IMG/VR virus record: IMGVR_UViG_3300030333_007174
Span: 1 to 23,004 of that record
Direction: 5' to 3' (one strand)
Source of the DNA: a virus
DNA length: 23,004 bases
Shown: positions 209-20,443 of the stretch, piece by piece
Position numbering within the stretch: position 1 is the stretch's first letter
Layout: each line of letters begins with the position of its first letter
Position numbers and translations under genes: made by a program
The notes under the pieces: model-generated
What the model was told of the DNA's origin: nothing
Seen by the model: the letters and a program-made list of their open reading frames with translations, nothing else
Databases searched by the model: none

Positions 209-1498
209 TTATACGTCTAGTTGAATCCACGCTTCACCAAAAACACCAGCGTCAACTGCGTTTTTAACTACTTTCGCTTCATCTGTGTTAGGCCACTTAG
301 CGGCCCAAGTTGTTCCTGCTTTAACAACAGCTTTATTTAAAGCTGTGTAAGCAAAATCGAATAGGAATTGAGGTACACCCATTGTACCTGTTCCTGCTAA
401 GGCAAAGTCCGCATCGTCATCCCATTTAGACTGTACTGTGTCTAAAAGGTCTTTACCGAAACGATAATCGACACCCATCAAACGTCCAACTGTATTAGCT
501 GTATCGCCTGAATCTGGCATCCAATTGCCATAGAAATCAGATTTTAACAGTTCGCCTGCGTCACCTTCACCATTCTCACTATTATATGTGTAGAAAGAAT
601 ACTCTTTCTCAACAGCTGCATAACCAAATGTCGAAACATCTGTAGCATCTACTGGAGCACCACTACTTAAGTTCTCAAGATCATATACAAAAGTTACTAC
701 TATCTCGTCTTCTGCATTATCTTTAACAAAAGTGATCGTACCATTACCAGCATTTACTGTATAATCAGTAGTTAGTGCAAGAGCTGCTCCACCAGCTGTA
801 ATACCAGTTACAGACTGAAACTTAGCTCCTGTAAAAGCAGCAGCATAAGTTGCAAATGTTAAATTAACATTTGAGCCTGTAGCACCTGAAATATCTATAG
901 TAGCACTATATGTACCAGTGATGTTTTCAGCGTTGCCATCAGTTCCTGTTGCATCTGCTGGAACAAAAGAACCTGCTTCACCCATAAAATCGTCAAAATA
1001 ATATGTGTCTACTGCAGGTATTTTTATTAACTGTTGTGTAAGAACTCCCCAGTTCTTATTTCTCATATCATAGTTAAGGTTGTCGCCGTTTATATCTTGA
1101 TAAACGTCGTGTTCTGCTATACCAATTGGTAAGTTTTTAGCGATAGTTTTAGTTGATCCATCAACTGGACTAACTACATCTCTATTAACATTACCATTAC
1201 ATGGAACCATTAAACCCATAATACCTTTACCTACGCTGTAGTAGGAAGTGCCGTCACCCAGATCTGAGTTCTGAGTGATAGCACTAACAATTCTACCTTT
1301 AGGTATTACAACGCTGTCTTGAGTACTTACGTCCTCAAAACTTTTTGGTAAGTGAGCATATGGCATTAATGGAAATGCAGGTCTAATACCGTCAGATTGA
1401 CTAATATTAGGTCTACCTGCGGACTCTCTGTACTTAGCAGGAGTCTTTTTCATTTTCTTGTTTACAGCTGTTGAAGCCGTAAAGTTTAGTTTTGCCAT
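209..1498 (-). CDS. Capsid protein paralogue 1, probable major capsid protein with inserted beta domain
   Basis: This 429-aa protein is a close paralogue of the next gene upstream: by hand alignment about 80% of the first 102 residues are identical, and the C-terminal block (GRLMGVDYRFGKDLLDTVQS onward, ending GVFGEAWIQLDV) is also shared. It is called a capsid protein from position, directly after portal, protease and scaffold-like genes, rather than from a recognised motif. Residues about 165-285 have no counterpart in the paralogue. They are rich in Thr, Ala, Gly and Val, and the stretch LTTDYTVNAGNGTITF looks like an immunoglobulin-like beta sandwich of the kind used for capsid decoration. 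Start: ATG at 1498 with AAGGAG about 9 nt upstream. Alternatives are a vertex or head-decoration protein. Confidence 0.55.
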   Translation of the reverse strand: MAKLNFTASTAVNKKMKKTPAKYRESAGRPNISQSDGIRPAFPLMPYAHLPKSFEDVSTQDSVVIPKGRIVSAITQNSDLGDGTSYYSVGKGIMGLMVPCNGNVNRDVVSPVDGSTKTIAKNLPIGIAEHDVYQDINGDNLNYDMRNKNWGVLTQQLIKIPAVDTYYFDDFMGEAGSFVPADATGTDGNAENITGTYSATIDISGATGSNVNLTFATYAAAFTGAKFQSVTGITAGGAALALTTDYTVNAGNGTITFVKDNAEDEIVVTFVYDLENLSSGAPVDATDVSTFGYAAVEKEYSFYTYNSENGEGDAGELLKSDFYGNWMPDSGDTANTVGRLMGVDYRFGKDLLDTVQSKWDDDADFALAGTGTMGVPQFLFDFAYTALNKAVVKAGTTWAAKWPNTDEAKVVKNAVDAGVFGEAWIQLDV

Positions 1499-1520: not shown

Positions 1521-2567
1521 TTATACGTTTAATAGAATCCAAGCTTCGCCAAATACTCCAGCATCCACAAGCTGTTTAATTACTTTACCTGGTGCATTAG
1601 AACCAAAATCAGCTGATGCGTCATTTGATACTACTGTGTAAGCAAAGTCATAAAGATGTTGTGGAATACCAGCTGTACCTGTACCAGCTAATTGATAATC
1701 ACCTTGATCATCCCATTTAGATTGAACTGTATCTAATAGATCTTTGTTAAATCTATAATCAACACCTAACAATCTTCCAACTACTCCTGCACCTGCTGAT
1801 CCATTTGTATGATTACCATATGCATCTGCAACTACTAAGGAACCAGCTTCACCTTCTCCAGTTACTGCGCCATCAAAGTGAAAGAAAGAATATTTCTTTT
1901 CAGCTGCTTTGTATGCAGCACCATAAGCGCCATTAGATTGCTTAATGAAAGAATCATCATGTAAGTCAACCATTTTGCCACTAAGGTCTGTATATGCATC
2001 AATATCAACTGAAGGAAGTTTAATTAACTGATGTGCTAAAACACCCCAGTTTTTATTCCTCATGTCGTAGTTAAGGTTTGTTCCATTTATGTCTTGGTAG
2101 ACATCGTGCTCTGCTACACCAATTGGTAATGAATTAGCTGCCATTGTAATTGTACAAGTAGCTGTATCCCAAGCTCCACCTAAAGCCTCACATTCTGTTT
2201 GGTTTTGTGGATAAGATTCATCGTCTGTTTTTAATAACTCGATGTCTCTTCCTGCTGCTGATCCGTTACATGGAACCATTAAACCCATGATTCCTTTACC
2301 AACTGAATAGTATTCTGCACCATCACCTAAAATTGAATTTTGAGTGATAGCAGAAACGATTCTACCTTTTGGTATTACTACACTGTCTTGAGTAGAAATG
2401 TCTTCAAAACCTTTAGCTAATCCAGCGAAAGGCATTAAAGGCCATGCTGGACGAATACCGTCAGATTGAGAAACATTAGGTCTACCTAGCGACTGTCTAT
2501 ATTTTGAAGGGACTTTCTTCATTTTTCTTGTTAATGAAGTGCCCGCTGTGAAATTTAGTTTTGCCAT
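1521..2567 (-). CDS. Capsid protein paralogue 2, probable major capsid or vertex protein
   Basis: A 348-aa paralogue of the following gene, sharing the N-terminal arm (MAKLNFTA, then the GRPN-SQSDGIRPA region), the STQDSVVIPKGRIVSAITQN block and the C-terminal FGEAWI end. It lacks the roughly 100-residue beta insertion of paralogue 1. Instead it has an insertion of some 15-20 residues around 118-142, containing ECEALGGAWDTATC (Cys126, Gly130-Gly131, Trp133, Cys138), which paralogue 1 does not have. It follows the scaffold-like gene with a 14-nt gap that carries an AGGAG ribosome binding site. Two tandem capsid genes recall T4 gp23 and gp24 (hexamer and vertex proteins), but I cannot tell from sequence which copy builds the lattice. 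Confidence 0.55.
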   Translation of the reverse strand: MAKLNFTAGTSLTRKMKKVPSKYRQSLGRPNVSQSDGIRPAWPLMPFAGLAKGFEDISTQDSVVIPKGRIVSAITQNSILGDGAEYYSVGKGIMGLMVPCNGSAAGRDIELLKTDDESYPQNQTECEALGGAWDTATCTITMAANSLPIGVAEHDVYQDINGTNLNYDMRNKNWGVLAHQLIKLPSVDIDAYTDLSGKMVDLHDDSFIKQSNGAYGAAYKAAEKKYSFFHFDGAVTGEGEAGSLVVADAYGNHTNGSAGAGVVGRLLGVDYRFNKDLLDTVQSKWDDQGDYQLAGTGTAGIPQHLYDFAYTVVSNDASADFGSNAPGKVIKQLVDAGVFGEAWILLNV

Positions 2568-4699: not shown

Positions 4700-5072
4700 A
4701 AGTTTCCTCCGATAATAACTCTGGAAATTGATCTTTACTATAAGTTATTTTTTTGCATCTAGGGCATTTAATTTCAACGTCACTTCCTGGTATAATCTTA
4801 GATAATAATTTATTACAAACTGTAGGAGCTCCCCATTTCTCAGACTTTTTATCGTCTATATGAGTGCACCTTAATTCTACTAGTTTTGTAGGAACACAGT
4901 TTGCTCTAATAGCAACTGTCCCACATCCTCTTTTTTGGCACTTTATTTCTACAGCAGATGGATTTTCTTTATCCATGTATTTGCATAATAAAGATGCACA
5001 AGAAGGGCATCTAAACTCAGTATATTCTAAAGACTTTGCTATTTTTTGCACGTCTTTTTCTTTTTTATCCAT
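4692..5072 (-). CDS. Small double zinc-ribbon protein (Com-like) between portal and protease
   Basis: A 126-aa protein with about ten cysteines arranged as zinc ribbons: FRCPSCASLLCKY with a later KCQKRGCG pair, then RCTHIDD...VCNK, and a final EIKCPRCKK. The first ribbon resembles Com-type regulators (phage Mu Com binds mRNA), but the similarity is only in spacing. It overlaps portal by 8 nt upstream and the protease by 8 nt downstream, so it is translated with the head genes. It could bind nucleic acid or a head protein; the function is unknown. Confidence 0.6.
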   Translation of the reverse strand: MDKKEKDVQKIAKSLEYTEFRCPSCASLLCKYMDKENPSAVEIKCQKRGCGTVAIRANCVPTKLVELRCTHIDDKKSEKWGAPTVCNKLLSKIIPGSDVEIKCPRCKKITYSKDQFPELLSEETYE

Positions 5073-6825
5073 TGATACTCCCAGTTAGCCTATCCTCTAA
5101 AGCAGAGAATACAAACTTTACCGTGTCCTTTAAGCTATAGGTATTCAAATAGTTAGATATCATTACCTGCAGTATAGTTATGTCATACGGGTCTAAGTTA
5201 GAATCTGTAAGTACTTTATTTAGCTGCTTTCTCGTCCTGACAGCTAAGCAATCATTCCATAGTTTTTTATAATTGTCTTTTGATATTTTTGGCTTGGCAA
5301 GTTGAGTGCCATGCTGATTTGAAGGCCTGCTTGTATTATTAGATGCATTTTGTTGCGGAGTATCTGCTGCACTACCTGCTTCAGCTAGTGGAATAGATAC
5401 TCTGTTTAAATACATATCTTCTTCTTGTATGCCTTCTAATAAATCTTTTCCTAATTCTTTTCTAAGCTCGGAGTGTGTAATACCATTTGATAAATATAGA
5501 TTTAAATGGTGAGCTTCTCTAGTGATTTTTTCTTGTAAAGCTACTTCCGGAATAGATAGCTCTACCATATTATCAGGGCCTAGGGTAAATTCGGTAAAAC
5601 CACCTTCATATAAAAGTTCTTTAATAATATGAAATTCTATAGATTTTTTAATAATTCTTTGAAACTTTGCAGATGTACTTTGTATTTCTGAATTCATAAC
5701 TTGAGCTGTTGCCCTATTAGCTGTATCCCCTTGACCCATAGATACATCAGACATACCTAGTCCTGCTAATACTCTTGCTCTAAAATATGTTAATGCAGCC
5801 GTTAAAATATTATTAGCGCTTGTTGCTTTAGCGACATCTTCTATCTCAACCCTTTCAGTTGTAATCATTACTCCGTCACCGGTTAAATTTCTAATAGTCG
5901 CAGCTAGATCGTCTACTTGTTCTTGAGTTCCTGGCTGTTCTTTACTTCCTACTTTAGCGTGTAGCTTTGGAACAGCTACTTTTATTGACTCTAGTAATAA
6001 TAATTCTTCTAATTCTCGTAAAGCTTGCATATCTGCTATTACAGGAGTTGCCATTGGCATAGCAAAGAAATAGTTAGAAGGAGAAGCACCCTTATCTTTT
6101 ATGTGAATCATATTATAAGAAGGCCACTCTATTGCTGTGTCTGCATTTAATTCTTTATTAAATCTAGTTACTACTGAACCGTCCTCTCTTATTTGTTTCC
6201 ATTTTCTAACATTACCATAGTCATCTCTATCTACTTCTACAGTAGCAGGATCTACGCAAAAGTAACCAGCAACTGGTACTCTTTTATAGCCATCAAATGT
6301 TGTTCTTTCTTTTCCTCCAGAAGCTCTTCTATTTCTTTGTTTAGCAATTAAAGAATTACTATACAAAACTAAATTAAAAGCAATCTCATCAAATAACTCA
6401 GATGTAGGTTTATTCGTAACTGTCGCCATTTGCTCAAATCTTTTTCTAATATACTTTACTGTAGCTGGATTATTTCCAACAAATTCCCATTCATGCTTCC
6501 TAATCTGTTCTACATACTTTTCTACGGCTCTTCTAAAAATTGATTCATTAGAAAAAGCTAATGCTACTTTTCTAAAGTCCCATTCAGGTTTTATATATAC
6601 TCCTCTACTGCCTCCAGTTAAGGCAGAAAGTACCTTAGCTTTAAGTTGAGCTAAAATATTTGCAACGCTCAGAGACTTAGCATCTTTAACTAGAGCACCG
6701 CCCTCTATAGGGTCCTCTAAAGAGTTATTACGTCTACTAATAATATCTTCAATTTTACTTTCTAGAGAATCATCTGATCCTTGAAACCATGTAAATGGAT
6801 TTAATACTGATCTTTTTTGAGCCAT
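5065..6825 (-). CDS. Portal protein
   Basis: A 586-aa protein of the size and layout expected for a phage portal, which forms the dodecameric ring at the head vertex through which DNA is packaged. The N-terminal part contains FRRAVEKYVEQIRKHEWEFV, typical of the portal region that introduces the wing. The middle has long helices and strands, and MGQGDTANRATAQVMNSEIQ resembles the conserved region before the stem and crown helices. The last 100 residues are Asn/Ser-rich and then helical. It starts with the TAATG overlap of the 749-aa gene and lies two genes downstream of terminase, the standard order. No single motif is diagnostic, so the call combines overall layout and neighbours. Confidence 0.75.
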   Translation of the reverse strand: MAQKRSVLNPFTWFQGSDDSLESKIEDIISRRNNSLEDPIEGGALVKDAKSLSVANILAQLKAKVLSALTGGSRGVYIKPEWDFRKVALAFSNESIFRRAVEKYVEQIRKHEWEFVGNNPATVKYIRKRFEQMATVTNKPTSELFDEIAFNLVLYSNSLIAKQRNRRASGGKERTTFDGYKRVPVAGYFCVDPATVEVDRDDYGNVRKWKQIREDGSVVTRFNKELNADTAIEWPSYNMIHIKDKGASPSNYFFAMPMATPVIADMQALRELEELLLLESIKVAVPKLHAKVGSKEQPGTQEQVDDLAATIRNLTGDGVMITTERVEIEDVAKATSANNILTAALTYFRARVLAGLGMSDVSMGQGDTANRATAQVMNSEIQSTSAKFQRIIKKSIEFHIIKELLYEGGFTEFTLGPDNMVELSIPEVALQEKITREAHHLNLYLSNGITHSELRKELGKDLLEGIQEEDMYLNRVSIPLAEAGSAADTPQQNASNNTSRPSNQHGTQLAKPKISKDNYKKLWNDCLAVRTRKQLNKVLTDSNLDPYDITILQVMISNYLNTYSLKDTVKFVFSALEDRLTGSING

Positions 6826-9074
6826 TAAATTTTCACCCCTGCATTATTTAAAATTTCTTGTACTTGTTGTGCTTCTTCATCAGACATTCTAGAGAAACAA
6901 TCTCCCTTTTTAGCAGCAGTTAATGCTTCCGCTGCTTCCTCTGGAGAAAGACCCATATATTGATTAAAGAATTTACTAACATCATCATCTGTTCTATAGA
7001 CTAATAAACCTATTGGGTCCACTGTATTACCAGTTATGTCAATCTTTGTTGTACCTGCACCAAAACCCGTAGGTTGATTACTAGATATATTTATATCATT
7101 ACCACTACTACTTCCATCCCCTGATAAAGTAGTATTACTTGGATCTAATAGATTATTGGGATCATACCCTGTTGTTAATTGATCATTAGCTGGATCGTAG
7201 CCTCCTAGTACATCATTTACTGCACCTTGATAGGTATCTTCTCCAAGCATAGAAAGATCCCTAGAATAAGCTCCACAAACAGTTAATGCATCAACATTTA
7301 ATGCTAGAATCCAATCACACATATCCAATAACCCATAAAGCCATTTTAATGCTTTATCTTTTTGAGCTTCTGCTTCAAATTGATATGCAGGTAGTCCCAT
7401 ATTCTTAGCTCTTAGCATCATATTAGCTTTCATTCTGTCAGTATACCCTCTTAACTGATCAAATAATCCTGTCCCTTCTGCCGTTAGCATTTCTGCTAGA
7501 AGTACTATTAAAGATTCCCAAGGTAGACATTGTGCTGCCGCTGTTTTTAAATTCCCACCATAAGTCCAATATCCTCCATTCTCTTCACACCCGCTTTTAG
7601 TAGTATAAGAATCATCATCGCAATAACCATTGCTTTCTAATTCTTCTTTAACAAATTCATCTATTTCTTTTTGCCTTTCCTCAACCCACTCAAATATTTT
7701 TCTAGTAACTTCTATTTGCACTTCATCAATTAAGTAATGTAAAGTCATATGTACAGCATTTATTAATATTTTTAAAACATTTATTCCTAAGCTTGGAAAT
7801 CCAAAGCTCATTCCTTGAGAAACATAAAGACCTATAATGATTTCAACCCATTTTCTAATTTCTGCTACATCTGACTGTAAATCAATTAAAAACTCTTCTA
7901 TTGAATATTCTTTACTTTCCCATTCAGCTTTCTCTGCTTCTAGCCTAGCTATTTCAGCGGGATCGTCTTCATTTTTTAATTTTTGTTCAATCCACCATAT
8001 ATAAACTTTTTCTAAATGATTTGGATCTAATCCTAAATTTTCTCCTAAGTAATCACTTAAATGAGGAATACCAGAAACTAGTTCAAAAAATACACAACAG
8101 AAAAATTCTCTAGAAAACACTTCTTCTTGCATCATGGTTAAAGCATCTGTTGCAAATTTATTACTCATTTTCTGCATACCATTCCACATATCATTTTTCA
8201 TATACTCAGCCATAGCTCCGGAGATATCTGCAGAAGCTGCATCTGGATCTATGTATCTCCCTAAGTATATATACTCATCATCATAATTAGTGTTAGTCAT
8301 GTTGACTGGAAAAAACTGTGTAAAATCATCAGAAGGAATAGAGGAATTTTTCTCAGGCATCGTATAAAAGTGTAATCTTAAGATTTCGTCACCTACAGCA
8401 TTTGTTGTGTATTGAGCTTTTTTAATGGCCATTGAAAAGGCAGCAGTAAGAGATTTATCTCCATTATGCATAGCTGCCACATCTCCTCCTGTATGACCTA
8501 GTGCATGTACAATACTTGCTTTAGTTACTCCTATGTATAAATTAGCGTCTTCCGAATATGAAATAGAATCTTGATCCCCTACAACTATTTTAACTATATC
8601 AGGAAGCCTAAATGCATCTTCAGATTGACTATATGGTATATCTAAATAATCTCTTCCTAGCTCTGCAGCTTCTCTAAAATCTCCATATCTTAAACGAACA
8701 TAAGATGTTTTATGCGCAAGATTAATCCTAGGATTAGATTCTTTCGCTAAGGAAGTCATCTTAGTTCTAAGTTTTTCTTTTATTTTTTCTAAATGCCTAT
8801 CAGGAGCTCCTAATAAATTATTAAATTTATCTGAACCTTCTTTTATTCTGTCAGTAATAGGCCTGTTATCTCTCCATTTTAAGCCAGCCGCATTACATGA
8901 TTTTTTATCAGGATAAAGAGGATCTATTGTTCCATTATTATCTATACAATATTGAAGATCACCAGATTTGGCCATCTTCTTCAGTTCTTTTCTACGTACA
9001 CGCGCAGTTGTACGTAGATTCTCCATAAAGTTATCTAGTTCATTTTGTAACTGATCGTTGTATGCGTCGCTCAT
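6825..9074 (-). CDS. Large virion structural protein of unknown role, between terminase and portal
   Basis: A 749-aa protein I do not recognise. It starts and ends in TAATG overlaps with terminase and portal, so it is part of the head and packaging operon and probably structural. The N-terminal 110 residues are basic and helical. A hydrophobic stretch lies near 405-450. Two Cys-rich micro-modules stand out: Cys43/Cys60/Gly64/Trp67 and Cys485/Cys496/Gly500-Gly501/Trp503 with Cys516, of the same type as the insertion in capsid paralogue 2. Residues about 640-690 are Asp/Asn/Gly/Ser-rich and probably a linker, followed by a small helical C-terminal domain. Possible roles include a neck, internal core or head-vertex protein. 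Confidence 0.5.
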   Translation of the reverse strand: MSDAYNDQLQNELDNFMENLRTTARVRRKELKKMAKSGDLQYCIDNNGTIDPLYPDKKSCNAAGLKWRDNRPITDRIKEGSDKFNNLLGAPDRHLEKIKEKLRTKMTSLAKESNPRINLAHKTSYVRLRYGDFREAAELGRDYLDIPYSQSEDAFRLPDIVKIVVGDQDSISYSEDANLYIGVTKASIVHALGHTGGDVAAMHNGDKSLTAAFSMAIKKAQYTTNAVGDEILRLHFYTMPEKNSSIPSDDFTQFFPVNMTNTNYDDEYIYLGRYIDPDAASADISGAMAEYMKNDMWNGMQKMSNKFATDALTMMQEEVFSREFFCCVFFELVSGIPHLSDYLGENLGLDPNHLEKVYIWWIEQKLKNEDDPAEIARLEAEKAEWESKEYSIEEFLIDLQSDVAEIRKWVEIIIGLYVSQGMSFGFPSLGINVLKILINAVHMTLHYLIDEVQIEVTRKIFEWVEERQKEIDEFVKEELESNGYCDDDSYTTKSGCEENGGYWTYGGNLKTAAAQCLPWESLIVLLAEMLTAEGTGLFDQLRGYTDRMKANMMLRAKNMGLPAYQFEAEAQKDKALKWLYGLLDMCDWILALNVDALTVCGAYSRDLSMLGEDTYQGAVNDVLGGYDPANDQLTTGYDPNNLLDPSNTTLSGDGSSSGNDINISSNQPTGFGAGTTKIDITGNTVDPIGLLVYRTDDDVSKFFNQYMGLSPEEAAEALTAAKKGDCFSRMSDEEAQQVQEILNNAGVKI

Positions 9075-11410
9075 TAAAATCTTCTTTTAGGCTTATTTAC
9101 TAAGCTTCTAGACCTATGTTTAAATGTTTTATTATCATTTTGTTTTATTGTACTTCCTACTTTTTTTAAGTTTCCATCCTTATCGCGAGTATATTCTCCT
9201 GGCTCACCAGGAGTAGAATGATTACCATGTCTATATATAGTTATGCCATTCGACTTCTCAACTGAGGGTATATTTTGCTCTTTAAATTGAGATCTCCACC
9301 CAGGCTTGACATTAGTAGATAAAACCTTTTCAGACTGCTCAACAGCCAAGTCTGATTCCCATCTATGAAACTGAGAAGTATCTAGCATATATCCATGTAC
9401 TGCTAGCATAAAAGCGTCTAGTCTGTGGTCTAAACTGTCTCGGACTGTTGATTCATATATTTCTCCAGTTTTTCCGTATCGTGCTACAACATAGCCTCTC
9501 ATTTGTCCTATTAAGTTTAGCTCATCGTTTTCGATTGTTTTTCCTTTTTTATTTACAGCAGGAATTACTAATCTATTTTCCTCGTTTAATAATTGTGCAT
9601 TTTTAACTATAACATTTTTAGTTAATGCCTTAGAAGTTGTTCCGGTTACTCTATCAATTATTTCAGAATTTCCTCCCATATCTATTGACATCATATTATC
9701 GAGTTGATGCTTCAACCCTCTAGCAGATGTACCTAAAGGTCCCTCTCCTTTATCGATAGAAATTCTTAACATTTCATAATTAGCTTCACCGTGCCCCCTA
9801 TCGAATACTAAAGAACTAAATGGAATTTTTTTCATTAATTTTAATATAAAGTCTACCGCTCCCATATTGGTATATTCTGCCCCATCTATATTATCTGCAT
9901 AAAAGACTCTTAAAACATTTTTCTTTTTAACAGGATTTATAATATCTCCTGATAAAGATTTCCACTCCCCGTCATTATATGGAATTAATTCTTCTTCTTG
10001 GTTCATTACTTCTAGTACAACTGCTTGTACTCCAAATTGAGATTCATTCCAATCTACTCCTAAAATATATTCATTATTAGGATTTAATTTTAGATCACTA
10101 TAATCGTATACATATAAATTTTGGTCTATGTGATGATTCTTAAATACTCCATCGGCTGCACTTCCAAATTCTGCAAGATACTCATGTTCGAACTGAGACA
10201 TCGGTGTAATAACTTTTAATTCTTTTTCTCTTTGAGCTGACCACTCTGGACTAACCATTGATGGGAAATGATGCTCTCCAAACCCTAGCTCTTCTTTATT
10301 TGTAGAAACTTGATAAAAATATTCTCGTCTACCTGTAGGAGTTCCTGAAACAGTTAAAGTCGTATCTTTATATGTAGTTTCAATAGGTATAACTGCTTCT
10401 ATAAGAGAATTAAAAGGAATAGAATCAACCTCATCAATATATAAATCATTTGCAGAGTTATGTGCTAGAAATCCACCTGTATGTCCACCCTGAACTTTAT
10501 GACCAGAAGCTACACTTGCTCCAGTTGCAACAGCTCCGCTTGTTTCAGGATAATCATTAAATACGACTAAGTTGTGATGATCATCCACTGTTATATCATA
10601 AGTGGCTGCTTTACCAATTTTTTTAATTCGTTTCACTCTAGCCCAATAGGATGTACCATCTGGATGTATTACAGAAATAAAATCTGCTTTATTGTCGTGA
10701 GTTTCTTGCGTATTCATGTCCTTCATTTCAGTCCATCCTCTATATAAACACATGAACTTATGATTATCTGTAGCATGCACAACACGTTCACTTGTTGTCT
10801 CTAGCTCGTAAATATCTCTTACTCCGTTATCGTGTACTGCAGAGACTGTTCCTTTTATCGCCTTGCCATCTGAATCTTCTGTGTTTACGGAAAGAACTTC
10901 ATCCCCTACTTTAATATCTTTTATAGATTTAAGATTACGATCCCACATTACTACATTAGTGGTAGCCGGAAAACATTTACCACGAACTGCATTATTTCCA
11001 ACGTATCCCATTATAACAGATCCATTTTTAAACCATATTTCATATGGTCTCATACGAGTTCTTTCAATTGAACTAGCAATAAACTCAGCGTCTCTGGCCA
11101 TTCTAAATATTAAATTAAAAATAGTTTGGACTTGTGAATCGTAGCCAGCCACTAGCAAAACCTCTCTATTAGTATGAGTATATGCTTTCCATATAGCTTC
11201 TATTGCAAGCGTCACTGTTTTACCTGTACGACGTCCCATTCTTAAAACTCTTTTTTGAGTTCTATCCCTAAGTATTTCTTTTTGATATGGACGTAGAATA
11301 AGATCTTCTTTGGGATTTGCAGGAGATTTTAAGTACATCTCAGCAAAATACACAGGATCAGCAAGTATCTGAGCCTCTAATAACTCTTTATCTGTTAACT
11401 TATCTGACAT
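9074..11410 (-). CDS. terL: Terminase large subunit (packaging ATPase-nuclease) containing an in-frame mini-intein
   Basis: This is the DNA-packaging motor. Numbering from the ATG at 11410 (MSDKLTDKE): Walker A GRRTGKT at 59-65, Walker B LYIDEVD ending around residue 329, and the coupling motif SGTPTG near 355. Nuclease acidic residues are likely Asp453 (LGVDWNES), Asp537 (LVFDRGHGE) and Asp665 (DHRLDAFMLAVH). A 173-residue intein splits the ATPase domain just before Walker B; the exteins join as AVRGK-SANDLYIDEVD, which matches terminases. A longer frame opens at a GTG at 11434, but the ATG at 11410 has GGGAG six bases upstream and is preferred. It overlaps the upstream gene by 16 nt. Without the intein the protein is about 605 aa, normal for the family. 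Confidence 0.92.
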   Translation of the reverse strand: MSDKLTDKELLEAQILADPVYFAEMYLKSPANPKEDLILRPYQKEILRDRTQKRVLRMGRRTGKTVTLAIEAIWKAYTHTNREVLLVAGYDSQVQTIFNLIFRMARDAEFIASSIERTRMRPYEIWFKNGSVIMGYVGNNAVRGKCFPATTNVVMWDRNLKSIKDIKVGDEVLSVNTEDSDGKAIKGTVSAVHDNGVRDIYELETTSERVVHATDNHKFMCLYRGWTEMKDMNTQETHDNKADFISVIHPDGTSYWARVKRIKKIGKAATYDITVDDHHNLVVFNDYPETSGAVATGASVASGHKVQGGHTGGFLAHNSANDLYIDEVDSIPFNSLIEAVIPIETTYKDTTLTVSGTPTGRREYFYQVSTNKEELGFGEHHFPSMVSPEWSAQREKELKVITPMSQFEHEYLAEFGSAADGVFKNHHIDQNLYVYDYSDLKLNPNNEYILGVDWNESQFGVQAVVLEVMNQEEELIPYNDGEWKSLSGDIINPVKKKNVLRVFYADNIDGAEYTNMGAVDFILKLMKKIPFSSLVFDRGHGEANYEMLRISIDKGEGPLGTSARGLKHQLDNMMSIDMGGNSEIIDRVTGTTSKALTKNVIVKNAQLLNEENRLVIPAVNKKGKTIENDELNLIGQMRGYVVARYGKTGEIYESTVRDSLDHRLDAFMLAVHGYMLDTSQFHRWESDLAVEQSEKVLSTNVKPGWRSQFKEQNIPSVEKSNGITIYRHGNHSTPGEPGEYTRDKDGNLKKVGSTIKQNDNKTFKHRSRSLVNKPKRRF
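10457..10975 (-). other. Mini-intein (Hint domain) within the terminase gene
   Basis: A 173-codon in-frame insertion starting at Cys (codon 10973-10975) and ending at Asn (10457-10459), followed by Ser as the first C-extein residue. Block A is CFPATTNVVMWD leading to IKVGDEVLS. Block B is VVHATDNHKF with the expected Thr and His (intein residue 72). Block F is ATYDITVDDHHNLVV. Block G is GGFLAHN then Ser, with the penultimate His and terminal Asn needed for Asn cyclisation. Only about 50 residues separate blocks B and F, so there is no homing endonuclease domain. Unusually, about 26 Gly/Ala/Ser/His-rich residues lie between blocks F and G, which are normally almost adjacent. All catalytic residues for splicing are present, so it is probably active. 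Confidence 0.9.
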
Positions 11411-12144
11411 AAAAAACTCCCAATTAATGTACACTTAGCTTTAGGAAAAGAAAGCTCTAGTGCCTTTCCTTCATAGGATTTAATAAATCTAATACTTTCT
11501 TTTTTAGTAGGTTTCTTATTCATTCTTCTTATAGAATCAATTAATTCTATACTGCCTGTAATATTTGTTGAAACATGCTTTGTTTGTCCATTAAAATACA
11601 TACCTAATCTACTGAGTAACATTATTAATAAATCTTTACTATCTTGATCAAGATGTTGTACTCTTTTATTAGAGAATAAATATTCAATAATATTTCTTAA
11701 CGATTTTTCATTTAACTTTGATAAGTATAAAGGTAGTGTTTGAACTATATGGGTGTTAGGTCTTTTTCCTTGAAAGTTACTAACAGAGCCTTTAAGATAA
11801 TCTAATTGCTTAGTGCTAAGATCCACCTCTCCATATAGGGGCAAATATCTTGATACTACTGCAGAATTTTCGGATCCCTTTAAAGTAGTTGATTTAGTTA
11901 AATCTGAGTTATATCCTAAAAAAGAGGTAGAAGTACCACAACGAATAGTCCTACCTTGAGCTCCACTAATTAATAATAAATTATCAGTTGATTCTGATAT
12001 ATCTAGTATAGAAGTTGAGCTATACTCTCCATCCCATTGCAAGAGATTATAACTTTGGTGTAACAGTTGCTTTGCTTTAATAATTTCTCCCTCATCTGTT
12101 ATTAAAAGTTGCTCCTCACTTATTTTAATCGTTTTCTTGGCCAT
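11395..12144 (-). CDS. Unknown protein encoded between bS21 and terminase
   Basis: A 249-aa protein of no family I recognise. The N-terminal 110 residues are rich in Ser, Thr and strands (ISESTDNLLLISGAQGRTIR). The second half is mainly helical (LNEKSLRNIIEYLFSNKRVQ), with a basic patch near 205-225 and two cysteines near the C-terminus. Its ATG lies inside the end of the bS21 gene (25-nt overlap) with no clear ribosome binding site, suggesting translation coupled to bS21, and its end overlaps the terminase start. Position next to the large terminase makes a small-terminase or packaging-accessory role possible, but no helix-turn-helix is evident and this is only a guess. Confidence 0.55.
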   Translation of the reverse strand: MAKKTIKISEEQLLITDEGEIIKAKQLLHQSYNLLQWDGEYSSTSILDISESTDNLLLISGAQGRTIRCGTSTSFLGYNSDLTKSTTLKGSENSAVVSRYLPLYGEVDLSTKQLDYLKGSVSNFQGKRPNTHIVQTLPLYLSKLNEKSLRNIIEYLFSNKRVQHLDQDSKDLLIMLLSRLGMYFNGQTKHVSTNITGSIELIDSIRRMNKKPTKKESIRFIKSYEGKALELSFPKAKCTLIGSFLCQIS

Positions 12145-13381: not shown

Positions 13382-14121
13382 TATACAGTACTCCTATGTC
13401 TTGCTTTATGCATAGCAAAAGGAGTAGATCCATCCATTCCTAAATGACCAGGTCTGCCAATTCTTCTACTTCCAGATGTCCATGATTTAAATCCAGGTCC
13501 AACTGTTCTTCCCCTATTACTCATTCTTCTTTTATTTAAAGCATTCTTTTTGGCTTCGTTTACTGACCTAACAATATCTAAATTTACTTTTCTTGCTCCA
13601 TACCCTCCAGCAACAGCTCCTAATAATCCTAAGATAGGAACCGCTTTCTTTAAAGGAACTCTACCCCAACTAGCAATACTAGACATTAGTCCTACACCAG
13701 CTCCGGCTGCTCCTCCATACATTGCTCCAGACATAAAAGAATCACTTAATCCTGTTTGACCTCCAACAGTCGTTGCCCATAAATCTTTTGCTTTCTCTAC
13801 ATGATAAGTTCCTATCATTTGTAAAGCATTTCCAGCTCCTGCAACACCAGCAGCTACTCCTCCGCCCCCACTAGGTTGAGCCATTCCTAAAGCGGCTAGT
13901 CTGCTCATTCTTTGAAAATATCCTGCTTCTTTGAAAGATTGGGCAGAGAAAGGATTTTCTCCTTGTGGTGCTTCTACACTTGCTCCAGGATTAGCAAAAA
14001 ATTTAGTTGTACCGTAAGCTGCCATCATTCCAGCTCCTGCCATAGCATAAGACTTCCAAGATGGTGTTTTAAACGATCTAGCTATATTACTTTTTGATCT
14101 TTTAGTTTGTTTAATCGGCAT
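13381..14121 (-). CDS. Gly/Ala-rich putative membrane-active protein, partner of the following gene
   Basis: A 246-aa protein with a basic N-terminus (KQTKRSKSNIARSFK) and four Gly/Ala-rich hydrophobic stretches: about 26-43, 87-103, 128-150 (SFMSGAMYGGAAGAGVGLMS) and 160-178 (AVPILGLLGAVAGGYG). The C-terminus is again basic (Arg, Lys, His). The family is not recognised. It overlaps the upstream Cys-cluster gene by 11 nt and the downstream Gly-rich gene by one base. The glycine-zipper spacing resembles proteins that insert into or deform membranes, such as phage ejection proteins, but a pure structural role is equally possible. There is no signal peptide with a cleavage site. Confidence 0.45.
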   Translation of the reverse strand: MPIKQTKRSKSNIARSFKTPSWKSYAMAGAGMMAAYGTTKFFANPGASVEAPQGENPFSAQSFKEAGYFQRMSRLAALGMAQPSGGGGVAAGVAGAGNALQMIGTYHVEKAKDLWATTVGGQTGLSDSFMSGAMYGGAAGAGVGLMSSIASWGRVPLKKAVPILGLLGAVAGGYGARKVNLDIVRSVNEAKKNALNKRRMSNRGRTVGPGFKSWTSGSRRIGRPGHLGMDGSTPFAMHKARHRSTV

Positions 14122-14908
14122 TATTAGTATCCTCTTTAAATGCTTCGTCTAAGTCAGCTTTTTCTCTTTCTTGAATAGATTCTTCTCTACTTTTTAACAG
14201 CTCAAATTTTTCTCTCATTTCTGCTGCTCTAGTAGACGGATCACTGTCATCAGTTAATTTATATTTAGCTCTTTGCTCTCTAGTAGCTAATAATTCTTTT
14301 CTTATAATACTTAATCTTCTAGAAGCTTTATCTTTTATATCAACGTATGGTGTAAGCTGTTCTTGATATAATACAGTACCCGTTGACTGAACAACAGCTG
14401 AAGCAACCTCTTTAACATCTCCTTCCATCGCTATCATATTTCTAGCTCTTCTTTCATCTAGTAAAGTTGCTGCATATTCTTGAACCATATTAACTTCTAA
14501 ATAATTCTCCATATCTACACCCATGTCTTTTATCAGTTGAGGAACCATTGCTTCTAAATACAATATTTCATCAGGACATCTTTCTCCTTTAGGAGCAATA
14601 CCCATTTTATAAAAAGTACAAATAGATGCAAATGGACACTCATCATTTTGACATACCATAGGGAGTGTATTTTTAACTCCAAAGGTAGATGTCTTAGAAT
14701 TCTTAATTAGAGTCTCTACTTGAGATCTACTAAGCTCAATACTATCCACCATACTTTCTGGATATGCTCTTAATATACTTTCTATCTCTGGCACAGAAGG
14801 TAGATTGACTAGCTTTACTTTCTCGTCTCTATCTATCTGCTTTAATGCCTGAGTCAGCTTAGTTGGTAAAGCATTCCTCTTATTAGTTATGTCAGATTCT
14901 TTCTTCAT
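14111..14908 (-). CDS. Unknown protein with a four-cysteine cluster and a helical C-terminus
   Basis: A 265-aa protein. Its middle carries VCQNDECPFASICTFYK followed by GERCPDE: Cys-x4-Cys-x5-Cys-x13-Cys, likely to bind zinc or an iron-sulfur cluster. The C-terminal 100 residues are charged and helical, with coiled-coil-like heptads (SRRLSIIRKELLATREQR, then REKFELLKSREESIQERE). The Cys cluster plus helical tail is seen in some phage packaging-accessory proteins, so a small-terminase-like or DNA-binding role is possible, but I cannot confirm it. It starts with a 4-nt ATGA overlap with the upstream small gene and overlaps the next gene by 11 nt. The function is unknown. Confidence 0.55.
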   Translation of the reverse strand: MKKESDITNKRNALPTKLTQALKQIDRDEKVKLVNLPSVPEIESILRAYPESMVDSIELSRSQVETLIKNSKTSTFGVKNTLPMVCQNDECPFASICTFYKMGIAPKGERCPDEILYLEAMVPQLIKDMGVDMENYLEVNMVQEYAATLLDERRARNMIAMEGDVKEVASAVVQSTGTVLYQEQLTPYVDIKDKASRRLSIIRKELLATREQRAKYKLTDDSDPSTRAAEMREKFELLKSREESIQEREKADLDEAFKEDTNNAD

Positions 14909-15126: not shown

Positions 15127-15484
15127 GAAATTCTAAAATATCCTCATTTAATGATTGTTTTTTATACTTAGATTGCCATACTCTAATTGCAGCTTCATCC
15201 ACTTCGAAAAAAGCTAATATAGATCGTGCAACAAAAAACGGATCATGATGTATAACTTGAGATACTATTTTTCTTTCAGCGTCTCCTGCTAATACCGCAT
15301 AAAATTTATGTTCTGTTCTCCAATACAATAATTGAGTTACAACATCCTGTGACTTAGCTAATGTATCATATTCCTCAGAACTACATTCAAATATTTCAGG
15401 TTCATTTGTATCTGACTCTAAAAAATTACGAGCCATCGCTCTAACTGGATGAGGTAAATCTTCTATTGTTTCTATTGTCTGCAT
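15113..15484 (-). CDS. Unknown 123-aa soluble protein
   Basis: A 123-aa slightly acidic protein with no recognised family. The first 60 residues include an acidic stretch (ESDTNEPEIFECSSEEYDTL). The rest is mixed helix with many aromatic residues (VIHHDPFFVARSILAFFEVD). It begins 9 nt after the membrane protein gene, with an AAGGAG ribosome binding site just upstream of the ATG at 15484. It is cotranscribed with the neighbouring structural-region genes. Confidence 0.5.
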   Translation of the reverse strand: MQTIETIEDLPHPVRAMARNFLESDTNEPEIFECSSEEYDTLAKSQDVVTQLLYWRTEHKFYAVLAGDAERKIVSQVIHHDPFFVARSILAFFEVDEAAIRVWQSKYKKQSLNEDILEFRERQ

Positions 15485-15493
15485 TATTTCTCC

Positions 15494-15838
15494 TTAAATA
15501 AATTGTAAAATCATAATTACTACAGCTAGCATAATCGTAATAGCAGTTTTTATAGTTATAGCTTCTCCTAAATATAAGTAAGTCATTAGTGGAAAAACAA
15601 GCATAGAAGTAGCAAACCCCATAAACCTTACAGGCCATAATGCTCCAAACCCTTGATATCCCCACTTTGTTCCATACCAAAATAGTAAACTTATAGGCAC
15701 TCCCATAATGGCCATAAACCACATAGACTTAGGAGTCTTGGCCCAATCCCAAACTAGTTGACTATTAACCTGGTACCAAATCAAAACATTACTAATTAAG
15801 AAAACTATTACAGTATATATAATATATTTATTTGGCAC
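15494..15838 (-). CDS. Small membrane protein with about four transmembrane helices, half-transporter-like
   Basis: A 114-aa protein dominated by hydrophobic helices at about 4-22, 42-56, 68-88 and 95-113, leaving almost no soluble part. The segment MTYLYLGEAITIKTAITIML resembles the end of EamA/small-multidrug-resistance type membrane proteins (a Gly-Glu before the last helix), and the length is about that of an SMR half-transporter. This resemblance is weak and functional residues cannot be assigned. Its start lies inside the ClpP-like gene (11-nt overlap), so the two are translated together. In a phage it would act in the host inner membrane; holin-like activity is a possible alternative but not favoured, since four helices in 114 aa is unusual for holins. 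Confidence 0.55.
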   Translation of the reverse strand: MPNKYIIYTVIVFLISNVLIWYQVNSQLVWDWAKTPKSMWFMAIMGVPISLLFWYGTKWGYQGFGALWPVRFMGFATSMLVFPLMTYLYLGEAITIKTAITIMLAVVIMILQFI

Positions 15839-19006: not shown

Positions 19007-19303
19007 TTATTTTTTGAAACTTGCCACAATATCAGCTTCCCTTATTATTAAATATTCTTTTTCATTTTCAGTGTATTTAGTACCTGAGTATTTAGAAAAC
19101 ATAATTCTGTCACCAATGTCTACGTCAGGTTTTCTTTGAACTCCTGAGCTCATCCAAAGACCAGGACCTACTGCGATAACAGTCGCTGTATGCGGTCTTT
19201 CTTTTGCGCTATCTGGAATAATTATTCCAGCTTCTGTTTTTGTGTCTACGACATCTACTTCTATAACTACTCTGTCTGCTTTTGGTATTAAGTTAAAACT
19301 CAT
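19007..19303 (-). CDS. groES: GroES-type co-chaperonin (Cpn10)
   Basis: A 98-aa protein of GroES size and layout: IPKADRVVIEVDVVDTKTEA at the N-terminus, the mobile loop TEAGIIIPDSAKERP with a hydrophobic Ile-Ile-Ile tip that docks on GroEL, then ATVIAVGPG, DIGDRIMFSKYSGTKYTE and EYLIIREADIVAS. It caps host GroEL and would help fold phage proteins, as T4 gp31 does for capsid protein gp23. No GroEL is encoded here, so it must work with host GroEL. A GGAG ribosome binding site lies 5-6 nt upstream of the ATG at 19303. It is directly followed by the small DNA-binding gene. Confidence 0.92.
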   Translation of the reverse strand: MSFNLIPKADRVVIEVDVVDTKTEAGIIIPDSAKERPHTATVIAVGPGLWMSSGVQRKPDVDIGDRIMFSKYSGTKYTENEKEYLIIREADIVASFKK

Positions 19304-19348: not shown

Positions 19349-20167
19349 TTAATTCAAAGAAAAATTATCATTTTCTTTAAACATATTTATTGGTGGAACT
19401 TTTATCCATTCTTCGTCCATGTTGCTTGTCATCAGCTCTAAAAAATTATGATGAATTGCTCTAGTTCCGTTTCTATGAGAGCCATAATCATCAACAAGAT
19501 TGTATTTTTCAAGGATAACAGGTATCTCATCTCTTCTAATCCAACATCTAAATGCTTCCTGTAGTTTTGTACTATCTTCCATAGTTTTACAAATATTTAA
19601 ATAATTCATTGGTATCTCTTCACTGTCTCCTGGAATAAAACCTCTATCTGCCCATACAATCCTTTGAAGATTAGCAGATAGATTTCCATCCTTGTCTATA
19701 TGAGTATCATCTGTTGATATTGCAAAATCTTTATTATTACTCGATTTTATTATAACACTTCTGTTAAATAAGCCTATATGATATGGACTGGGAGAATTAG
19801 GACATTTGATTAGTTTTAAGAATAATTCTCGATTTTTATCCTTGGAAGGCACAATCTCAGGATCAGTTAACATAACATTTTTAATCTCTCCTTCAAAGTA
19901 GTATTCTAAATATATAGCATGAGCTGGAATACCTACTTGTGCTGCAGATAAACCCATTAGTTCATGTTTATCCAATCTATGACTAAGACTATTCCGTAGT
20001 GTTTCTTTTAGAGCATGTAAACTTTCATAATTTAGAATAGCTTTTGACGAACTAGATAAAGTTGGTGTAGAAACTATTGAAGACGCTACTCCTAAAAAAG
20101 AAGCATAATCTATAAAATCCTGTCTGAAAGTATTACGTAGATCTTTTAATGATCTTCTTTCAAACAT
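19349..20167 (-). CDS. Peptide-deformylase-fold protein, apparently inactive
   Basis: A 272-aa protein whose middle third matches peptide deformylase (PDF). Motif I is MGLSAAQVGIPA (Gly72, Gln77), followed by the strand NVMLTDPEIV corresponding to PDF ...INPEL. The PDF motif II (EGCLS) is represented by KCPNSP with Cys122. The PDF motif III, HExDH, which supplies two metal-binding His and the catalytic Glu, aligns with LQRIVWADRG at 167-176 and has neither the His residues nor the Glu. It therefore probably cannot bind the metal or deformylate peptides. N- and C-terminal extensions (about 30 and 90 residues) are not typical of PDF. Upstream gene abuts with no gap; GroES follows 45 nt on. An active PDF that uses other residues cannot be excluded. 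Confidence 0.7.
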   Translation of the reverse strand: MFERRSLKDLRNTFRQDFIDYASFLGVASSIVSTPTLSSSSKAILNYESLHALKETLRNSLSHRLDKHELMGLSAAQVGIPAHAIYLEYYFEGEIKNVMLTDPEIVPSKDKNRELFLKLIKCPNSPSPYHIGLFNRSVIIKSSNNKDFAISTDDTHIDKDGNLSANLQRIVWADRGFIPGDSEEIPMNYLNICKTMEDSTKLQEAFRCWIRRDEIPVILEKYNLVDDYGSHRNGTRAIHHNFLELMTSNMDEEWIKVPPINMFKENDNFSLN

Positions 20168-20443
20168 TTATTCTTCCTTCTTGTCTTTTACCCTTGTTAC
20201 TTTATCAGCTGTAAGGGGAGAAGAGTGTTGGGAACCTGACTGCCCTTGAGACGCTGTTTGTAATTTTTTATAAATATTTTGTAATTTCTCTATAGTAGTA
20301 ACAGCTTGTTCTAGATTTGCTCCAGGTATCATACTGTTTTTAATTGCTATTAAAAGAAACTCAATATCAGCTTCTGTTATTTGAAGCTCTTTAATTAATT
20401 TAAGCTTTTCGCTTGGTTTTACCATTTTACTTTTTAAACTCAT
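20168..20443 (-). CDS. Small helical protein of unknown function
   Basis: A 91-aa protein. A basic start is followed by helices (LIKELQITEADIEFLLIAIK, LEQAVTTIEKLQNIYKKLQT) and a Gln/Ser/Lys-rich flexible end. The helices have coiled-coil character. No recognised family. It has a strong AAGGAGG ribosome binding site 4 nt before the ATG at 20443, and its stop abuts the start of the deformylase-like gene. Confidence 0.5.
   Translation of the reverse strand: MSLKSKMVKPSEKLKLIKELQITEADIEFLLIAIKNSMIPGANLEQAVTTIEKLQNIYKKLQTASQGQSGSQHSSPLTADKVTRVKDKKEE

Follow-up and report, generated by a model that had tools for sequence, protein, structure and literature searches.

The window, a virus record of 23,004 bases, encodes a homologue of peptide deformylase (PDF) in which the motif that supplies most of the catalytic metal ligands has been replaced by other, conserved residues (Table 1). 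The protein descends from PDFs or shares their fold, and to judge from sequence and gene order it is a PDF-fold pseudoenzyme that most likely acts on phage late proteins, as a binding factor or in assembly. Its open reading frame is intact, with 272 codons running from an ATG at 20167 to 19349 on the minus strand, and GGAAG lies a few bases 5' of the ATG.

Table 1. Coordinates in the window of the PDF-fold gene, its sequence elements and the adjoining genes.
Feature	Coordinates	Strand	Remarks
PDF-fold protein without metal site, 272 aa	19349..20167	minus	ORF, profile and model evidence
N-terminal extension, residues 1-39	20051..20167	minus	low model confidence; R15, F18, Y21 invariant 8/8
Motif I remnant LMGLSAAQVG, residues 70-79	19931..19960	minus	Q77, G79 invariant in family
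Motif II remnant IKCPNSP, residues 120-126 (LIKCPNSP = 119-126)	19790..19810	minus	Cys122 kept 8/8
Motif III helix position, residues 162-176 NLSANLQRIVWADRG	19640..19684	minus	helix 162-174 in model; register from ungapped fit and helix position
C-terminal region, residues 189-257	19397..19603	minus	mixed alpha/beta in model; C208, E214 invariant
91-aa protein	20168..20443	minus	immediately upstream; abuts start codon of PDF-fold gene
GroES/Cpn10 co-chaperonin	19007..19303	minus	next gene downstream of PDF-fold gene, 8/8 loci

Kinship with PDFs rests on the convergence of relatives, a profile-profile score, HMM ranking and AlphaFold/Foldseek matches. Because the window protein alone gives weak single-sequence matches (Pfam PF01327 over residues 35–111, E 0.0026 and 17.8 bits, below the 22.8-bit cutoff; PHROG 2890, E 0.0011), with direct sequence support spanning only residues about 35–113, we gathered relatives. 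Seven were obtained from uncultured viral contigs (L001, L006, L008, L010, L027, L032 and L041, with L027 and L032 located via a conserved neighbour gene), giving eight distinct family proteins, the others being 38–72% identical to the window protein (72% for L001). PF01327 is a weak match in seven of the eight; the best score in the family is 21.4 bits, so that no member attains the gathering score, and nothing on any contig scores above it. No second PDF match occurs on any family contig, these being fragments of 20–70 kb. When the eight-member profile was compared with the PDB, all 26 sequences listed (E up to 0.4; best E 0.0021) were deformylases, including 3uwa, the deformylase of phage S-SSM7, although the sequence file lists it under a different molecule name. 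Alignment of the family against 11 PDFs (the E. coli PDF and ten phage PDFs) with hhalign gave P 91% and E 1.1e-6, against P of 0.5 and 0.1 with two neighbouring families as controls. Additionally, an HMM of the same 11 PDFs ranked all eight members (7.3 to 22.2 bits) ahead of all other ORFs in those loci and of 1036 shuffled sequences, the best of which scored 6.1 bits.

The predicted structure indicates that the PDF fold is present in the window protein. AlphaFold was given the eight-member alignment without any known PDF, and the best model reached pLDDT 71 and pTM 0.73 (the other four of five, 42–60); an earlier model from three sequences had a pLDDT of 40 and was useless. The core of the best model comprises a helix at residues 40–62, strands from 72 to 151 and a helix at 162–174, followed by the alpha/beta region 189–257. 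The best 50 Foldseek matches of the model in the PDB are all PDFs, with TM-scores by target length of up to 0.64 and a best E-value of 3.2e-4 for the Helicobacter pylori PDF (2ew5), and only deformylases came to the top in a search of a viral fold library. In the shorter targets the alignments take in almost all of the PDF core, covering 142 columns over the 151 residues of 1ws0 and 136 columns over the 148 residues of 3uwa (TM-score 0.63 by target length, rmsd 3.3). Profile, HMM ranking and Foldseek matches thus bear out the first-pass annotation, which had called the protein deformylase-like. That annotation also described long extensions at both ends; the C-terminal one is indeed large, with about 70–95 aa of extra sequence relative to PDFs, whereas the N-terminal one is modest, at about 25–40 aa of low confidence. 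Neither Pfam nor the PDB offered a credible match for the C-terminal region. A match to 8pju (SAKe6DEtal, E 2e-4) was dismissed as spurious, the chain being repetitive and each of three repeats contributing only about 5 bits.

PDFs hold their metal through the motif II Cys and both His residues of HExxH (PMC5591237). Motif I (GLSAAQVG) and the motif II Cys had been reported in the window protein from its sequence, and both were found. The window sequence MGLSAAQ follows the motif I pattern, hydrophobic-G-hydrophobic-(A/S)-A-x-Q, of which the Q is kept in all eight members and the G becomes Ala in L010 and L041. Compared with the EGCxS of motif II, EG is replaced by [IV]K and Cys122 is followed by P[NT]SP; Cys122 itself is aligned with the PDF motif II Cys in the extended, low-confidence part of the hhalign alignment. 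HExxH is absent from all eight members whatever the register, in agreement with the earlier claim that both His ligands and the Glu are lost. Whether residues 167–176 (LQRIVWADRG) fill the motif III helix had been named as a check, and in the AlphaFold model residues about 162–176 do so, the helix at 162–174 having the sequence NLSANLQRIVWAD. An ungapped fit of this region on DGNLSANLQRIVWADRGFIPGD of the E. coli PDF matches Q168 and G176 to the conserved motif III flanks, and the PDF QHExDHLxG then reads QRIVWADRG. In this register, which is inferred from where the helix lies and from the Q and G at the flanks of the motif and carries no significant sequence score, His is replaced by Arg169 (Lys in L041), Glu by Ile170 (Ile, Val or Ala in the family), Asp by Trp172 and His by Ala173. 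The replacements are themselves conserved, with Q168, W172, A173 and G176 invariant and position 169 always Arg or Lys. No His is invariant across the eight members, and thus no rebuilt metal site is visible in the family; H130, considered as a substitute ligand, was rejected, being Asn in L027 and Tyr in L041. Nor does any of the seven homologues carry HExxH, so neither a restored site nor an active-looking relative speaks for a deformylase. We strongly infer that the protein is without a catalytic metal and has no deformylase activity.

The PDF-fold gene is maintained by selection. The ratio dN/dS is about 0.13 for two pairs, window–L001 (dN 0.20) and L006–L008 (dN 0.18), with dS about 1.45 and hence near saturation, which argues that the protein is kept and is not the product of a decaying gene. 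A non-functional deformylase gene in decay would account for the lost catalytic residues, but the ORF is open in all eight loci, even where identity falls to about 40%, and the replacement residues are invariant; together with dN/dS these columns contradict such a reading, which we reject as almost certainly wrong. Outside the uncultured viral contigs, tblastn with three family members against 50,697 phage records gave no match, and profile scans of bacterial and archaeal genomes found no member. The portal (window 5065–6825, minus strand) and a 265-aa conserved Cys protein (14111–14908, minus strand) have distant kin in three named phages, Moorella phage MTATph1, Bacillus phage KLEB27-3 and Acinetobacter phage ME3, which suggests a large-phage lineage without close named relatives. 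These three phages gave no PDF match, and the family profile had no match in MTATph1 or KLEB27-3.

The operon around the PDF-fold gene is a morphogenesis block. In the order of transcription, a 280-aa putative membrane protein, PhoH, a 157-aa protein and the 91-aa protein precede the PDF-fold gene, which is followed by GroES, an HNH-like protein, several unknowns, a ClpP-like protease, the terminase and the portal. A weak match to a head-maturation protease comes after the portal, and then two tandem related proteins, which their location and resemblance to each other mark as putative capsid proteins. The PDF-fold gene holds a fixed place in this PhoH to terminase/portal/capsid block in 8/8 loci. 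GroES had been pointed out as its neighbour from the sequence, correctly; the further description of the operon as otherwise linked to protein folding was overstated, GroES being the only chaperone seen.

Our preferred explanation, to which we give about an even chance, is a PDF-fold pseudoenzyme whose motif III helix would carry QR(I/V/A)xWA in place of HExxH and whose groove side, formed by the motif I and Cys122 strands, may have been kept as a protein- or peptide-binding surface. A new C-terminal region would have been added to the PDF core, and the protein may work while late genes are expressed or particles are assembled; it might, for instance, hold on to a phage late protein that is bound for GroES-assisted folding or for the particle. 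We prefer a binding-factor role because the gene keeps its place next to GroES in the head-morphogenesis block, and because the motif I and Cys strands are retained while new conserved sequence is found at both ends. The putative assembly role is drawn from gene position, and the adjacency of GroES is no independent evidence for it because the whole block is conserved. The change of function proposed in the first-pass annotation is in keeping with these results.

The dead fold could instead act as a decoy that binds formyl-Met N-termini or the ribosome exit site, excludes host deformylase or aminopeptidase and so alters N-terminal processing during infection. Binding at the ribosome exit or to formyl-Met chains had been suggested in the first-pass annotation but gained no direct support here. 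No PDF element is better conserved in the family than the motif I strand, and in PDFs this strand lines the peptide groove; active PDFs are common in marine phages (PMC5591237). The E. coli PDF, however, binds the ribosome via its C-terminal helix (PMC5591237), which has no recognisable counterpart in the window protein, where an unrelated region is found instead. The location of the gene within a morphogenesis block also speaks against a decoy. Finally, the motif III helix positions that line the Met pocket would be altered in the register proposed above, being Asn162, Ala165, Asn166 and Arg169 in the window protein, and we regard the decoy as unlikely.

A role in the virion, also suggested in the first-pass annotation, finds support in gene position only. 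A structural virion or prohead protein, with the PDF core as a mere scaffold and the function in the N- and C-terminal parts, would suit a gene among head genes and the invariant residues at the N-terminus (R15, F18, Y21) and C-terminus (F206, C208, W254, P258, F263), but no structural-protein family in PHROG or Pfam matches it, and we consider it quite improbable. We doubt even more strongly a metal-free enzyme chemistry, for example with Cys122 as nucleophile, or a metal site made up of C122, C208 and acidic side chains: C122, C208, E88, E214, K118 and K121 are invariant in all eight members, but they resemble no known active site, no His is invariant, and C208 falls in the C-terminal region. 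Some residual, non-canonical activity through Cys122 is conceivable from the sequence.

Comparison with known PDFs sets the family apart. The type 4 and type 1B PDFs of phages and marine viruses (S-SSM7, 3uwa; Vp16) are likewise phage-encoded and of PDF fold, but they keep all three motifs and have short C-termini, whereas the window family is without motif III and has a C-terminus longer by about 70–95 aa; the H. pylori PDF (2ew5), solved with an inhibitor, has 166 aa and likewise no long C-terminal region. Vp16 PDF and marine PDF 1906 deformylate in vivo, most viral PDFs described keep the three motifs, and all phage PDFs have been suggested to be active enzymes (PMC5591237). Type 3 PDFs, which include the accessory PDFs of S. 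aureus and S. pneumoniae and those of archaea and trypanosomatids, have been characterised as having little or no activity (PMC5591237, PMC12690207) and in this respect would resemble the window family. The part of the family that aligns with PDFs, about 60–75 residues, was considered too short to place it reliably in or outside the type 3 clade of a PDF tree. Their described substitutions lie in motifs I and II (PMC12690207); by that description the phage family differs in retaining most of motif I and the motif II Cys, in lacking any motif III ligand and in its extra C-terminal sequence. Exact motif conservation is an imperfect predictor of PDF activity, although the relaxed motif III of that study still holds HExxH (PMC12690207). 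The loss of the whole motif III, the conserved replacements and the long C-terminus thus make the family new relative to described PDFs, and we found no earlier description of a PDF pseudoenzyme in the open-licence literature. In cyanophage P-RSM6 (L049) the PDF gene adjoins a gp23-like capsid gene, so capsid regions of other phages can contain PDFs.

In phages, PDFs are commonly catalogued as auxiliary genes providing deformylase activity. A conserved family without the metal site means that a PDF-like phage gene does not imply deformylase activity, and it offers a well-defined instance, open to experiment, in which the fold of an essential host enzyme has been reused as a pseudoenzyme. With roughly equal belief for and against, we propose that a phage lineage has converted a PDF into a specialised protein free of metal, in which Arg/Lys, Trp and Ala became fixed at the former metal site and which would act as a binding factor in assembly or in the handling of nascent late proteins.

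Several other features of the locus were observed. The terminase large subunit (window 9074–11434, minus strand) contains an intein-like insert that starts with CFPATTNVVMW after NAVRGK and ends before SANDLYIDEVDS, and the terminases of L006, L008 (L025), L010 (L023) and L001 (L026) are similarly long (781–786 aa) and carry an insert at that site too. The tandem related proteins at window 209–1498 and 1521–2567 (minus strand) resemble paralogous capsid proteins (MAKLNFTA...SQSDGIRPA). A short Cys-rich motif (TKSGCEENGGYW, NQTECEALGGAW, DKKSCNAAGLKW) recurs in two otherwise unrelated head-block proteins, encoded at window 6825–9074 and 1521–2567 (minus strand). Within the gene of a 114-aa membrane protein, an overlapping frame is open both in the window (15441–15722, minus strand) and in L001 (10496–10720, plus strand), which may only mirror the conservation of the membrane protein.
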